A stretch of DNA of 36,609 bases from IMG/VR virus record IMGVR_UViG_3300033388_001888, positions 1 to 36,609 of that record. One strand, written 5' to 3'. The translations under genes were made by a program, and so were the position numbers. This stretch comes from a virus. Position 1 is the first letter of the stretch. The number at the start of each line of letters is the position of its first letter. The notes below the pieces were generated by a model. It ran no database searches. It had not been told where the DNA came from and saw nothing but the letters and a program-made list of their open reading frames with translations. Shown here piece after piece: positions 14,780 through 17,994 of this stretch.

Positions 14780-15114
14780 TGCGCAACACCTTCTTCACAA
14801 TGTAATTCAAGCCATTTATTTCTTTCTTCAATATTGATAATCGCTCTAATTTGAAAGTGACGGCCGTTATAATTGATACGGTCGGTGTTCAAAATGTCAG
14901 CAGTATATCGGATAAATACACGATGAGATAATTTTGCCTCAAGACGTTGACTGTGTAGCTTTTCGCTACCTGTTAGCGGCTTAATAAAGGCTTTAAGGTT
15001 TTTGTTAGTTATCCATATTTCAGAATTGCCGCCGATATCATCAGGCGATTTCATCAACCTATCAATAGCGATTGAGTTCCTAAGTTTTCCAGCGTAAATA
15101 TCACAGCATTTCAC
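14776..15114 (-). CDS. Head closure protein (112 aa, head-tail joining family)
   Basis: Resembles SPP1 gp16-type stoppers: AGKLRNSIAIDRLMKSPDDIGG, FIKPLTGSEKLHSQRLEAKLSHRVFIRYT, DRINYNGRHFQIRAIINIEERNKWLELHCEE. The likely start is a GTG that overlaps the preceding stop (GTGA), with only a weak ribosome site, so translation is probably coupled. Closes the portal channel after packaging. Confidence 0.85.
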   Translation of the reverse strand: MKCCDIYAGKLRNSIAIDRLMKSPDDIGGNSEIWITNKNLKAFIKPLTGSEKLHSQRLEAKLSHRVFIRYTADILNTDRINYNGRHFQIRAIINIEERNKWLELHCEEGVAQ

Positions 15115-15713
15115 AGGCTAAGTACCATAGCACTAACGCCCCATACAGAATTTGCCCCACTTTCTTTAGCGGCATTACCAATATCACAGGCTCCACGATG
15201 TTCGTACAAATACCCGGCCATCATATTAATACCCAAAATAACGTTAGCGGGAATGTCAGCAGGTAACGTGTAACCAGCAGTATAAGTGACTTCGATGTTT
15301 TCACCGTAGCTTTCAAAGAATATACGAGGCGGCTTGCTGTTTAAATCTGACGTAAAGGTCTCAGCGACACTATCAACGGTCACGCTACTAACTACGCTTA
15401 CCGGGTAAAGTGGTATATCAATCCAAGCATCTAAATTAGACGATACCGGGCTAAGGCCAGTAAATCTTGCGCCTATAGACGGATAACGGTCGAATTTAAG
15501 CAACCATTCGCGTGATAGTAACTCATTACTTGATTGCGCTATATACCATTCACAAACAGCTAATAAGAACGAATTCAATAAAACGTCATCAGCAGCGTTG
15601 TAATCCAAGCCTAGAAAATTAGAAAATTCTTCAGGAGTAACAGGGCTAATTAATGCCCCGCTAGTCGTGTTGCTTTTCTTGTTTTCTCTCGTTTTTTGGT
15701 TTCCGTATGACAT
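15111..15713 (-). CDS. Head-tail connector, gp6-like (200 aa)
   Basis: After a polar N-terminus comes the connector fold: ISPVTPEEFSNFLGLDYNAADDVLLNSFLLAVCEWYIAQ, DIPLYPVSVVSSVTV, then VTYTAGYTLPADIPANVILGINMMAGYLYEHRG, which is the hallmark of the family. It forms a ring below the portal. AAGGTG lies upstream; the start lies inside the preceding 65-aa gene (53-base overlap). Confidence 0.88.
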   Translation of the reverse strand: MSYGNQKTRENKKSNTTSGALISPVTPEEFSNFLGLDYNAADDVLLNSFLLAVCEWYIAQSSNELLSREWLLKFDRYPSIGARFTGLSPVSSNLDAWIDIPLYPVSVVSSVTVDSVAETFTSDLNSKPPRIFFESYGENIEVTYTAGYTLPADIPANVILGINMMAGYLYEHRGACDIGNAAKESGANSVWGVSAMVLSL

Positions 15714-15858
15714 TTTTTGTCACCTTTGTTACTTCGGGTTTAACAACTTTCACTTCGCGTATTAATCCACGCTCTAGCCGCTCATCATTATGCGGTAAAT
15801 TCTCTGGCACCTCGTCGCCCTCGCGATACTTGCCAAAGTTCATGTTTGCTATGTACAT
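15661..15858 (-). CDS. Small structural-region protein (65 aa)
   Basis: ATG 15858 has an excellent GGAGG site; the open frame reaches 15900 but without support. MYIANMNFGKYREGDEVPEN followed by NDERLERGLI resembles small proteins often found between capsid and connector genes. The C-terminal half is very basic (Lys/Arg/Val rich). First gene downstream of the rightward moron, so it probably uses the leftward promoter at 15903-15931. Confidence 0.75.
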   Translation of the reverse strand: MYIANMNFGKYREGDEVPENLPHNDERLERGLIREVKVVKPEVTKVTKNVIRKPKNERKQEKQHD

Positions 15859-15902
15859 TGTATGCCCTCCGTTTTTATTTATTTTAGCACTGATAAACAT
15901 TA

Positions 15903-15931
15903 AATGTAAATAAAGGTTGCGATGGTGTCAA
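15903..15931 (-). promoter_or_regulatory. Leftward promoter for connector/tail genes
   Basis: On the minus strand a consensus -35 TTGACA (15926-15931), 17 bases, then TACATT (15903-15908) as -10. The start would fall about 38 bases before the GGAGG-led gene at 15858. The -35 box is itself one of the TGTCAATT repeats, so the binding protein of those repeats should control it. Confidence 0.6.
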
Positions 15932-15944
15932 TTGATGTTAGAAT
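15917..15944 (+). promoter_or_regulatory. Rightward promoter of the moron
   Basis: TTGCGA (15917-15922), 16-base spacer, TAGAAT (15939-15944), five of six matches for the -10. The start would be near 15951, 26 bases before the HTH gene. The element overlaps the divergent leftward promoter and the operator repeats. Confidence 0.6.
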
Positions 15945-15966
15945 GATGTCAATTGATGTCAATTAC
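15926..15966. promoter_or_regulatory. Phased operator repeats (three TGTCAATT sites)
   Basis: TGTCAATTGATGT occurs exactly at 15926-15938 and 15947-15959, and a third TGTCAATT starts at 15957. Spacings are 21 and 10 bases, two and one helical turns, so the three sites face the same side of DNA. They cover the spacer and start of the rightward promoter and the -35 of the leftward one. Probably bound by the small HTH protein encoded just downstream. Confidence 0.7.
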
Positions 15967-15976
15967 TAGGGTTTAT

Positions 15977-16138
15977 ATGAATAGCACAACGCAAAAATTA
16001 AAGGCAAAAGGGTACAGTATTGGTCAGTTTCTAAAAAAGTCAGGGATTAGCCTGAGTTCATACCGCCGATATGAGAAAGAGGGGAACCCGAATAACGGAA
16101 TGCTTAACAGGCTGATTGATGGATTAGAGGCTAAGTAA
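15977..16138 (+). CDS. Small HTH-like regulator of the moron (53 aa)
   Basis: ATG 15977, after AGGG, gives MNSTTQKLKAKGYSIGQFLK..., 53 aa; the frame is open from 15953 but that would start within the operator repeats. YSIGQFLKKSGISLSSYRRYEK fits a helix-turn-helix: helix, G-I-S turn, recognition helix. First gene of a three-gene rightward unit inside the leftward late operon, next to phased repeats it may bind. Its stop overlaps the next start (TAATG). Confidence 0.75.
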   Translation: MNSTTQKLKAKGYSIGQFLKKSGISLSSYRRYEKEGNPNNGMLNRLIDGLEAK

Positions 16139-16593
16139 TGAGTAACATACTAAAACTAAAAAGAACCAAAGAGCATGACTACCAAGATAAAATCAAAGAT
16201 TTAATTTCCTTTGACGACAATAATATCAACGACCTTTTGAGTGACGCTAACCACATACAGGCTAACTTTAAGGCCATACGTGAGGAGGGTAACATAAAAA
16301 TAGAGATGTTTTTTAGTGAGGCTTATGAGGATATAACTATCGATTGTTATCTTGTTACGCTTACTGTTCTAGGTGTTGAGTATCACGAGGTGTCTAGCCT
16401 TGATACTACATTCAAAAGCTTTGTGGATGCTCTCGACTTTATTACTTGTGAGCTTTTATCACCGGAAAATAAAGGGCTTGGGTTACAGATTAGAATGGTC
16501 GATTGCGATAATGCCACCCCTGAGGATATGTGTAAGGATGATTTTACCGGGTCGGTGTCATTTATGGTTGGCTGTGAGTTAGAGGTTAAATAA
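16138..16593 (+). CDS. Moron protein of unknown function (151 aa)
   Basis: Soluble acidic 151-aa protein, coupled to the HTH gene by TAATG. A basic N-terminus (LKLKRTKEHDYQDKIKD) is followed by alternating strands and helices with many Asp/Glu and four Cys (in DCYLV, FITCELL, VDCDN, VGCELEV and MCKDD segments). No motif identified. As the central gene of an inserted unit it may be the cargo that affects the host or competing phages. Confidence 0.75.
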   Translation: MSNILKLKRTKEHDYQDKIKDLISFDDNNINDLLSDANHIQANFKAIREEGNIKIEMFFSEAYEDITIDCYLVTLTVLGVEYHEVSSLDTTFKSFVDALDFITCELLSPENKGLGLQIRMVDCDNATPEDMCKDDFTGSVSFMVGCELEVK

Positions 16594-16736
16594 TGGATAA
16601 AAGCACAATGGTTTGGGTTACTTTACTATCTATGTCCGTCATACACACCGCGCTTATGTATGTCACAGGTGATAGTGATTATTGGGTGTCCTCGCAATCG
16701 TTTTTGGCGGCATCTTTCATTGCTATATTGAAGTAG
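16593..16736 (+). CDS. Moron membrane protein (47 aa)
   Basis: Starts in the stop of the 151-aa gene (TAATG). Two short hydrophobic segments, VWVTLLSMSVIHTALMYV and WVSSQSFLAASFIAIL, flank a GDSDY turn, suggesting a two-pass inner-membrane peptide. Last gene of the moron, followed by a bidirectional terminator. Could anchor the partner protein or act as an exclusion factor. Confidence 0.65.
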   Translation: MDKSTMVWVTLLSMSVIHTALMYVTGDSDYWVSSQSFLAASFIAILK

Positions 16737-16749
16737 CATAACGCGCACC

Positions 16750-16776
16750 AAAAAGGCTCAATTAAGAGCCTTTTTT
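16750..16776. terminator. Bidirectional terminator between moron and capsid gene
   Basis: GGCTC/GAGCC stem extended by A5/T5, 6-base loop (AATTAA). T-runs exist on both strands. It ends the rightward moron transcript and the leftward capsid transcript, whose stop codon is at 16791. Leftward genes beyond it would then depend on read-through or on the promoter at 15903-15931. Confidence 0.88.
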
Positions 16777-16790
16777 ATTACAGCCAAATA

Positions 16791-17978
16791 CTAAGGAAGG
16801 GCAGGAGTTAACACGCCCTTAACGAATGCTAAAGGACGTTCGATAGCGAAAGCTAAGCGTTCTTCGGCAAGGATAGCGATACCATTCTTGATGAATAGGT
16901 CGGCATGTTGGTCAGCAGTGAATACTGATTTTTGCTGACGGTCATAGATAGTCGCGCCCATAGCGAAATCGCCCATCAAGAAAGTACCTTCTGGCATACC
17001 GTTTGAAACAACTACAGGGATGCGCCACATACGAGCCTCGCCACCTTGTGGAACTGTAGCCCAGATGTAATGACCATCAGTGCCTTTGCTGGTTTCCAAG
17101 ATTTCCCAATCAGCAGGGCTGACCACAACAGCAGTAGCCGCATAGTTTTTCAATTGTAAAGCTGTAACAGCCTTACGGATATGGTCTACCCAAATAGTAC
17201 CAGTTTCAGCACCAGAGGCACCAATAGTAGGAACAGCAGAATCAACCAATAAACCTTTTAAGTTATTGCCTGTGCCATCACCAAGTAAAAGCTGGCTATC
17301 AGATAATAAATCAAGGCCGTACATTAAACGGTTATCAATCTCAGCTTGTAAGCGTGGAACATCAGCTAAAATTTGACGAGAAGCAACGACATAATGCGCC
17401 ATTGTCTGTACTACATACGTTTCTTGCGTATATGTAATATCAGATTTGGCTTTATCGGCTAACTCGCCAGCTTGTGGTGCTGCTTGGTTGTCAAAAGCAT
17501 TTTCACGCATAACTTCAACAGCAGAATCGGCAATCGGAATCGTAGTCAATAAGTCACGGATTAATACTTGGCGATTAGGATCACGAAATATGGTCGGATT
17601 ACGGAATTGAGTAGTCAATGCGCCAGCACTACCGCCACCATTACTAATATCTTTAGTGATTAAGTTTAACTCACAGGCGTCAGTACGATTGCCGCTGCGG
17701 TTTTTAAACTCTTGAGACTCAATAAACTGTTGGCCAGCCGTTTTACGTTCCATCAATACACCTTCTACAGCGCGATTTGATTTAACTTCTAACTTGGTCA
17801 TGCGCTCATCAACTGATTTGATTTCTGTTGATACGTTAGCGATTGAGGTGCCTACTTCTTTGGCGTTAGCTTCGGCAGCTTCTTTGATTGATTTTACTTC
17901 GCCAGCTTGTGCGTCTAATGATTTTTTAATATCACCAGTAGCGTTAACAAGTGCGTCGTTTAATTCTTTGATTTCCAT
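16791..17978 (-). CDS. Major capsid protein, HK97 fold (395 aa)
   Basis: Start chosen at MEIKELNDALVNATGD (17978); an upstream in-frame ATG at 18014 overlaps the protease gene and adds a poor N-terminus. The first 100 residues are a helical scaffold-like delta domain (IKEAAEANAKEVGTSIANVSTEIKSVDERMTKLE). The capsid body follows: TRFRNP-like NPTIFRDPNRQVLIRDLLTTIPI, VQTMAHYVVASRQILADVPRL, LLLGDGTGNNLKGLL and FAIERPLAFVKGVL. The protease encoded just upstream probably removes the delta domain during maturation. Confidence 0.93.
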   Translation of the reverse strand: MEIKELNDALVNATGDIKKSLDAQAGEVKSIKEAAEANAKEVGTSIANVSTEIKSVDERMTKLEVKSNRAVEGVLMERKTAGQQFIESQEFKNRSGNRTDACELNLITKDISNGGGSAGALTTQFRNPTIFRDPNRQVLIRDLLTTIPIADSAVEVMRENAFDNQAAPQAGELADKAKSDITYTQETYVVQTMAHYVVASRQILADVPRLQAEIDNRLMYGLDLLSDSQLLLGDGTGNNLKGLLVDSAVPTIGASGAETGTIWVDHIRKAVTALQLKNYAATAVVVSPADWEILETSKGTDGHYIWATVPQGGEARMWRIPVVVSNGMPEGTFLMGDFAMGATIYDRQQKSVFTADQHADLFIKNGIAILAEERLAFAIERPLAFVKGVLTPALP

Positions 17979-17994
17979 TTTAATATCTCGCTTA

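Follow-up and report, generated by a model that had tools for sequence, protein, structure and literature searches.

We propose that a divergent promoter region in a 36,609-nt viral sequence (positions 1 to 36,609 of IMG/VR record IMGVR_UViG_3300033388_001888, hereinafter the window) is likely the control module of a self-regulated moron cassette, which lies antisense to the virion genes and carries a promoter that restarts the virion operon. A rightward extended −10 promoter would drive the gene for a 53-aa HTH protein together with small, variable cargo genes. The HTH protein would bind four phased TGTnA units, which stretch across the spacer, −10, start and leader of that promoter, and would thereby repress its own operon. 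A second, leftward promoter (TGCTAAAAT) would restart the virion genes that the cassette and a bidirectional terminator sever from the capsid gene.

Genomic context of the cassette

Leftward genes spanning 5448–25485 of the window code for terminase, portal, head morphogenesis, protease, capsid and connector proteins, and also for the tail terminator, major tail protein, tape measure and fibre (by PHROG assignment, with PHROGs 442, 25, 5, 176, 1407 and others in the connector/tail block). A rightward trio, comprising the genes for the HTH protein and for 151-aa and 47-aa cargo proteins, is flanked by the capsid gene on one side and, on the other, by a 65-aa gene, itself followed by the head–tail adaptor (Table 1). 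The 65-aa protein has no match in PHROG or Pfam, and counterparts of similar size and position occur in phages Pq0, AL, PHS21 and PHS3. Comparison of the window's cargo with Pfam, PHROG and PADLOC gave no match, and neither did a family search with the 47-aa protein.

The Pseudoalteromonas phages SL25, Pq0, AL, PHS21 and PHS3 share the window's capsid (46–47% for SL25 and Pq0) and have other rightward small genes in the capsid–connector slot. In the distant capsid relatives L004, L005, L008 and L010 the capsid gene is directly followed by co-directional small and connector genes. The trio thus separates genes that lie side by side in related phages and, judged from sequence, has its own predicted promoter and terminator, both of which are marks of a moron. 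The terminator that the original prediction had placed after the capsid gene is borne out as a hairpin of −13.9 / −17.8 kcal/mol (z −4.6 / −4.3), and a hairpin separates capsid and cassette in all five capsid-slot cassettes (the window, L049, L052, L058 and L085).

The capsid–connector slot of the Pseudoalteromonas phages holds varied antisense small genes, one of them coding for a small HTH-like protein and one for an HNH endonuclease (L031 8747–9532 and 11008–11181; L028 2098–3497; L029 2777–3312; L030 2981–3516). A second antisense slot lies two genes beyond it in these phages, marking this part of the genome as an accessory-gene hotspot.

Table 1. Features of the cassette, its control region and its neighbours in the window
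Feature	Position	Strand	Remarks
Head–tail adaptor	15111..15713	−	followed by head closure, neck, tail terminator and tail genes to 5448
65-aa gene, first virion-operon gene leftward of the module	15661..15858	−	SD GGAGGG at 15865–15870
Leftward extended −10 TGCTAAAAT	15889–15881	−	predicted; start expected near 15874
Originally proposed leftward promoter TTGACA-17-TACATT	15903..15931	−	consensus match only, 10/12; probably no promoter
Rightward promoter TTGCGA-16-TAGAAT with TG extension	15917..15944	+	predicted; start expected near 15951
Operator unit 1, TGTCA	15926..15930	+	candidate; motif scan
Operator unit 2, degenerate TGTTA	15936..15940	+	candidate; overlaps the rightward −10; TGTCA at this place in L022 and L023
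Operator unit 3, TGTCA	15947..15951	+	candidate; motif scan
Operator unit 4, TGTCA	15957..15961	+	candidate; motif scan
Leader AGGGTTTATATG, ribosome-binding site and start codon	15968..15979	+	AGGGGTTTATA in most modules
53-aa HTH protein	15977..16138	+	recognition helix SLSSYRRYEK, residue 31 = Arg; 41 relatives
151-aa cargo protein	16138..16593	+	search for relatives found none
47-aa cargo protein	16593..16736	+	small, probably membrane, from its sequence
Bidirectional terminator	16750..16775	both	predicted; closes the cassette and the capsid-gene transcript
Major capsid protein	16791..17993	−	right neighbour of the cassette; PHROG 10, 3.6e-63

A phased repeat array over the rightward promoter

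The region was originally described as three TGTCAATT sites at 21- and 10-base spacing covering a rightward promoter. These are indeed present as exact copies on the + strand at 15926, 15947 and 15957. A degenerate fourth unit, TGTTA at 15936, completes a four-unit series with a spacing of 10/11/10, which occupies the spacer, −10, start and leader of this promoter. Scored as four TGTCA words, the array reaches 19/20 at 15926 and is the top site of the whole window; the runner-up score of 15 belongs to overlapping register shifts of the same site, and the maximum in each of 30 first-order Markov copies of the window is 13–16. A single TGTCAATT is ordinary, with 51 one-mismatch matches as against 48.6 expected. 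The TGTCA-type units are direct repeats; of the repeat types described below, the TGnCA...TGACA type alone lends itself to an inverted reading.

Two more exact TGTCAATT copies lie 47 bases apart on the + strand (1286–1293 and 1333–1340), inside a reading frame of 151 aa; the promoter profile finds no module there and the pair is probably due to chance.

The rightward promoter combines a TTGCGA −35 (15917–15922) and a TAGAAT −10 (15939–15944) across a 16-nt spacer, and the two elements and their spacing align across the family of related modules. Promoter-like sites as such are not in excess in the region (10, compared with 12.6 in shuffles). The leader AGGGGTTTATATG recurs in L021, L023 and L027 and takes the form GGGGTTTGTATG in L022, with unchanged spacing.

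Recurrence of the module with a small HTH family

A divergent control module of ~100 bp is found in 42 loci, and behind each copy lies a gene of a small, uncurated HTH family. These 42 amount to about 39 distinct loci, since L044/L048, L068/L069 and L075/L078 are near-copy pairs; they are mostly metagenomic and comprise marine phage sequences and a Colwellia MAG. A protein search recovered L021, L022, L023 and L027, whose HTH proteins are 55–70% identical to that of the window and have the same operator, promoter and leader. The operator pattern alone recovered a sixth case, L042 in the Colwellia MAG, again with the same three elements. This MAG also codes for two distant HTH paralogues with the recognition helix SLRWYREH, which are accompanied by a different repeat, ATGCAAA, placed alike relative to promoter and leader; a search with these paralogues led to 23 further viral loci. 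A promoter profile detects the module in 31 of the 31 loci then known (weakest E 0.02). Finally, a skeleton scan using the leader and the leftward −10, and hence blind to both operator repeats and HTH, added 11 modules, all of 96–97 bp and each with a family HTH behind it; its chance hits have no family HTH.

The repeats accompany the HTH relatives, and SL25, Pq0 and the capsid relatives lack the module (E 1.5 or worse); the latter observation led us to reject the module as a general late promoter of these phages. Operator-pattern hits without an HTH in viral contigs fall in unrelated sequence and were taken as chance. Among bacteria sampled at one genome per species, the HTH protein search found none and the operator pattern one, namely the Colwellia MAG, which was also the only positive among 394 genomes of its order.

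The family is predicted to adopt an HTH fold. The window's protein narrowly matches Pfam HTH_3 (6e-5, 23.4 bits with a cut-off of 23), and just 2 of 28 members match this model at E 0.01. Searches against named phages and plasmids gave weak matches only (RstR and others), the second HTH subfamily was not found among named phages, and solved structures returned no significant match.

The Colwellia MAG has three cassettes (L044 1501–1662, L045 1498–1692 and L042) with two repeat specificities, TGTCA and ATGCA. This is as expected if cassettes must avoid cross-talk; the MAG may also mix sources.

Covariation of the repeats with the recognition helix

The aligned modules show three repeat types, namely TGTCA, TGCAA and TGCCA/TGTCA/TGACA, and the difference among them tracks a single position of the HTH protein. 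Base 4 of the repeat is C in all 19 loci with Arg31; in the 23 loci with Glu, Asp, Thr or Ala at this position it is not C in most units, the repeat being mostly TGCAA. Residue 31 thus predicts base 4 without exception (42/42 loci); none of the other 34 aligned columns does so, the next best reaching 38/42. Counted per unit, 33/33 have C4 where residue 31 is Arg, as against 1/51 elsewhere; the probability of 1e-22 for these counts ignores relatedness, and we give more weight to the uniqueness and location of the column. On a tree from which the recognition helix was excluded, the operator label switches at three points, each accompanied by a change of residue 31; with three independent switches a sign test cannot reach 0.05. 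The cleanest switch separates L063/L065 (Ala31, TGCAA) from L064/L066/L067 (Arg31, TGnCA). As L042 alone was found through the repeat, the association of repeat and HTH is not a product of the search.

Residue 31 precedes the conserved Glu of the recognition helix by two positions, at a place that we take, from our own placing by the HTH_3 match, to be that of Gln33 in the 434 repressor. In the 933W repressor, an XRE protein, the residue in this position is Lys46, which contacts the guanine of a C–G pair (PMC3317979), and we propose that Arg31 acts alike. Given the fit in 42/42 loci, the single matching column of 34 and the three matched switches, the 53-aa protein very likely reads and binds these repeats. 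The original suggestion that they are HTH-binding sites is thereby strengthened: they behave as a probable operator that travels, and changes, with the recognition helix. That the repeats are a functionless remnant of a local duplication, as the near-perfect tandem copies formed by units 3 and 4 in the window might suggest, is hardly credible, given that they keep their position across proteins about 34–70% identical to that of the window and change in step with residue 31.

Predicted autorepression of the cassette

Because the units cover the spacer, −10, start and leader, the bound HTH protein probably represses the rightward promoter and with it its own synthesis. A point against this reading is that XRE-type repressors mostly bind inverted repeats as dimers, direct repeats being unusual. 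Small HTH activators also exist in phages, and the location of unit 1 within the promoter spacer would be in keeping with the protein switching the cassette on, perhaps as a late activator; we regard this as unlikely, as units over a −10, start and leader hold the usual positions of repressor sites, and the rightward promoter, with its extended −10 and fair −35, needs no activator.

A probable leftward promoter restarting the virion operon

The original prediction of divergent promoters in this region finds support; a leftward promoter reading into the connector and tail genes is plausible, and is needed where a terminator follows the capsid gene, but the element differs from the one proposed. 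The latter used the TTGACA read backwards from the TGTCAA of unit 1, paired over 17 nt with TACATT (15908–15903), so that the HTH protein would directly repress the connector and tail genes along with the moron. The combination matches 10 of 12 consensus positions, and 10 of 11 TGTCA-type modules contain the TTGACA. Its −10 is a 4/6 match in the window itself, is kept (at least 5/6) in only 1 of 42 modules and averages 3/6 in the TGTCA group; modules of the TGCAA type have no TTGACA at this place, yet keep the other leftward −10. The TTGACA itself is the operator unit in reverse, and we find this model quite improbable; direct action of the HTH protein on the tail genes through the unit-1 TTGACA was rejected, as the paired −10 is not conserved.

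The extended −10 TGCTAAAAT shows a different pattern. It is kept at 5/6 or better in 38 of 42 modules, with the TG in 35, and in many relatives takes the form TGATATAAT or TGCTATAAT; without the 11 loci whose search pattern contained the leftward −10, the figure is 27/31. The four exceptions include L064 and L070, the only loci with a + strand gene to their left, where a hairpin terminator takes its place; the other two, L045 and L059, have a leftward neighbour but no clear leftward −10. Among the 31 loci, the element is present in 27 of 29 with a leftward neighbour and in 0 of 2 without (probability about 0.013), counting L048, which is cut at its left edge, with the former as a near copy of L044. 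Usually 14–40 bases separate the module from the start of the virion gene. A GCTAAACT element precedes the same gene in the module-less SL25 and Pq0, and similar ones occur elsewhere, including before the Pq0 terminase. Since the −10 is conserved and is absent where no leftward gene follows, we think it highly probable that it is a restart promoter for the virion genes.

In SL25 and Pq0 a leftward element around GCTAAACTAAAC is repeated (L031 10695(−) and 4059(−); L032 6202(−) and 12849(−)) and is likely a late promoter of these Pseudoalteromonas phages, with a variant, GCTATACTAAAA, before the Pq0 terminase small subunit.

The repeats lie ~50–90 bp upstream of the leftward start and the operator does not overlap the leftward −10, so that a bound protein would not cover the core elements of this promoter. 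The expected starts of the back-to-back promoters are 77 bp apart, and the polymerases may therefore compete. An extension of, and compatible with, the restart reading is that the HTH protein, by repressing the rightward promoter, raises the leftward one, either by lifting the competition of overlapping polymerases or by contacting polymerase from sites upstream of the leftward start, which would inversely couple cassette and tail-gene levels. The start-to-start distance, which is less than two full polymerase footprints, and the near-fixed spacing from the leftward −10 to the operator (with the skeleton at 96–97 bp in the pattern-found modules) are in its favor. The fixed spacing may, however, reflect ancestry, and L064 and L070 keep operator and HTH without the leftward promoter, which indicates that the operator serves at least the rightward one. 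We consider such a switch possible but rather doubtful; likewise, any influence of the HTH protein on virion or tail genes, for example through relieved polymerase competition or activation, is a speculative possibility.

Insertion sites and cargo

Among neighbour-cluster representatives assigned by PHROG, the cassettes are antisense wherever their neighbours run leftward. They occupy the junctions of terminase and portal (two portal families), head morphogenesis and scaffold, capsid (two families) and connector, adaptor and head closure, and portal and a ~98-aa gene, and also occur at the terminase small-subunit gene. The HTH gene is the sole element common to all cassettes and is their first or second gene; other cargo families recur in 14, 13, 5 and 4 loci. 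The only named matches among the cargo families tested are a YopX-like protein and a weak zinc-ribbon (FmdB-like) one. As module and HTH recur at varied junctions with varied cargo, they behave as a portable chassis for accessory genes.

Two recurrent cargo families have no Pfam match: a small membrane protein bearing a REVxCWYFKIN-like motif (L060 3445–3657 and 12 other cassettes) and a ~157-aa protein (L068 3347–3820 and 13 other cassettes).

At the end of many terminase-slot cassettes, convergent stop codons overlap by 4 bp, and in the terminase/portal slot such an overlap is often without a terminator, which implies a weaker need for a restart promoter in these loci. The overlap with the next virion gene (TTAA or CTAA) packs the insert to the base; examples are L050 3141–3144, L055 3984–3987, L061 2598–2601, L068 4002–4005, L023 1874–1877, L027 7254–7257 and L042 2262–2265, and also L075, L084, L096 and L098.

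Comparison with known systems

Our search of the open-access literature found no description of this module. Tentatively, and with more doubt than conviction, we posit that phages of marine Gammaproteobacteria carry a hitherto undescribed class of portable chassis for accessory genes, exemplified by this module and combining a bidirectional promoter, a cassette-borne repressor and a virion-operon restart, with repressor specificities diversified against cross-regulation and cargo enriched for host-interaction or counter-defence functions. If the mechanism proposed for the module is right, it would explain how reversed accessory genes can settle at several sites among the essential capsid and packaging genes while these stay active, each insert bringing its own restart promoter and repressor. 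The Arg31–C4 pairing would then offer a ready-made specificity code, and the HTH gene with its 97-bp module a tag for mostly uncharacterised phage accessory genes, as aca is for anti-CRISPRs.

The HTH protein resembles the XRE/Cro-CI repressors (434, P22 C2, 933W; PMC3317979) in its HTH_3 match and in the position of its specificity residue, but differs in its length of 53 aa, in having no separate dimerization domain, in its direct repeats and in not evidently being a lysis–lysogeny switch. The nearest named repressor is RstR of CTX phage, with 41% over 43 residues at E 1; the match to the RstR NCBIfam model (E 0.0026, 18 bits with a cut-off of 80) is below every cut-off, and genome type and context are different.

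The acr–aca operons (Aca1, Aca2, Aca3; PMC8434428, PMC9765179) likewise have a small HTH protein in an accessory operon with sites over its own promoter, an arrangement to which covariation and position point here too. Aca1 and Aca2 bind inverted repeats and aca is usually downstream of acr (PMC8434428, PMC9765179); in our module, with Aca compared by description rather than sequence, the repeats are direct at 9–11 bp in place of an inverted-repeat operator, the HTH gene comes first or second, and no known anti-CRISPR was recognised in the cargo by Pfam, PHROG or PADLOC. The cassette is also like the P22 moron pid (PMC3573128) in being small, bringing its own control signals into the late region and running antisense to its neighbours, at a site where relatives hold no insert or another one; it differs from pid in uniting a conserved module and regulator, found at several junctions, with variable cargo and a second promoter.
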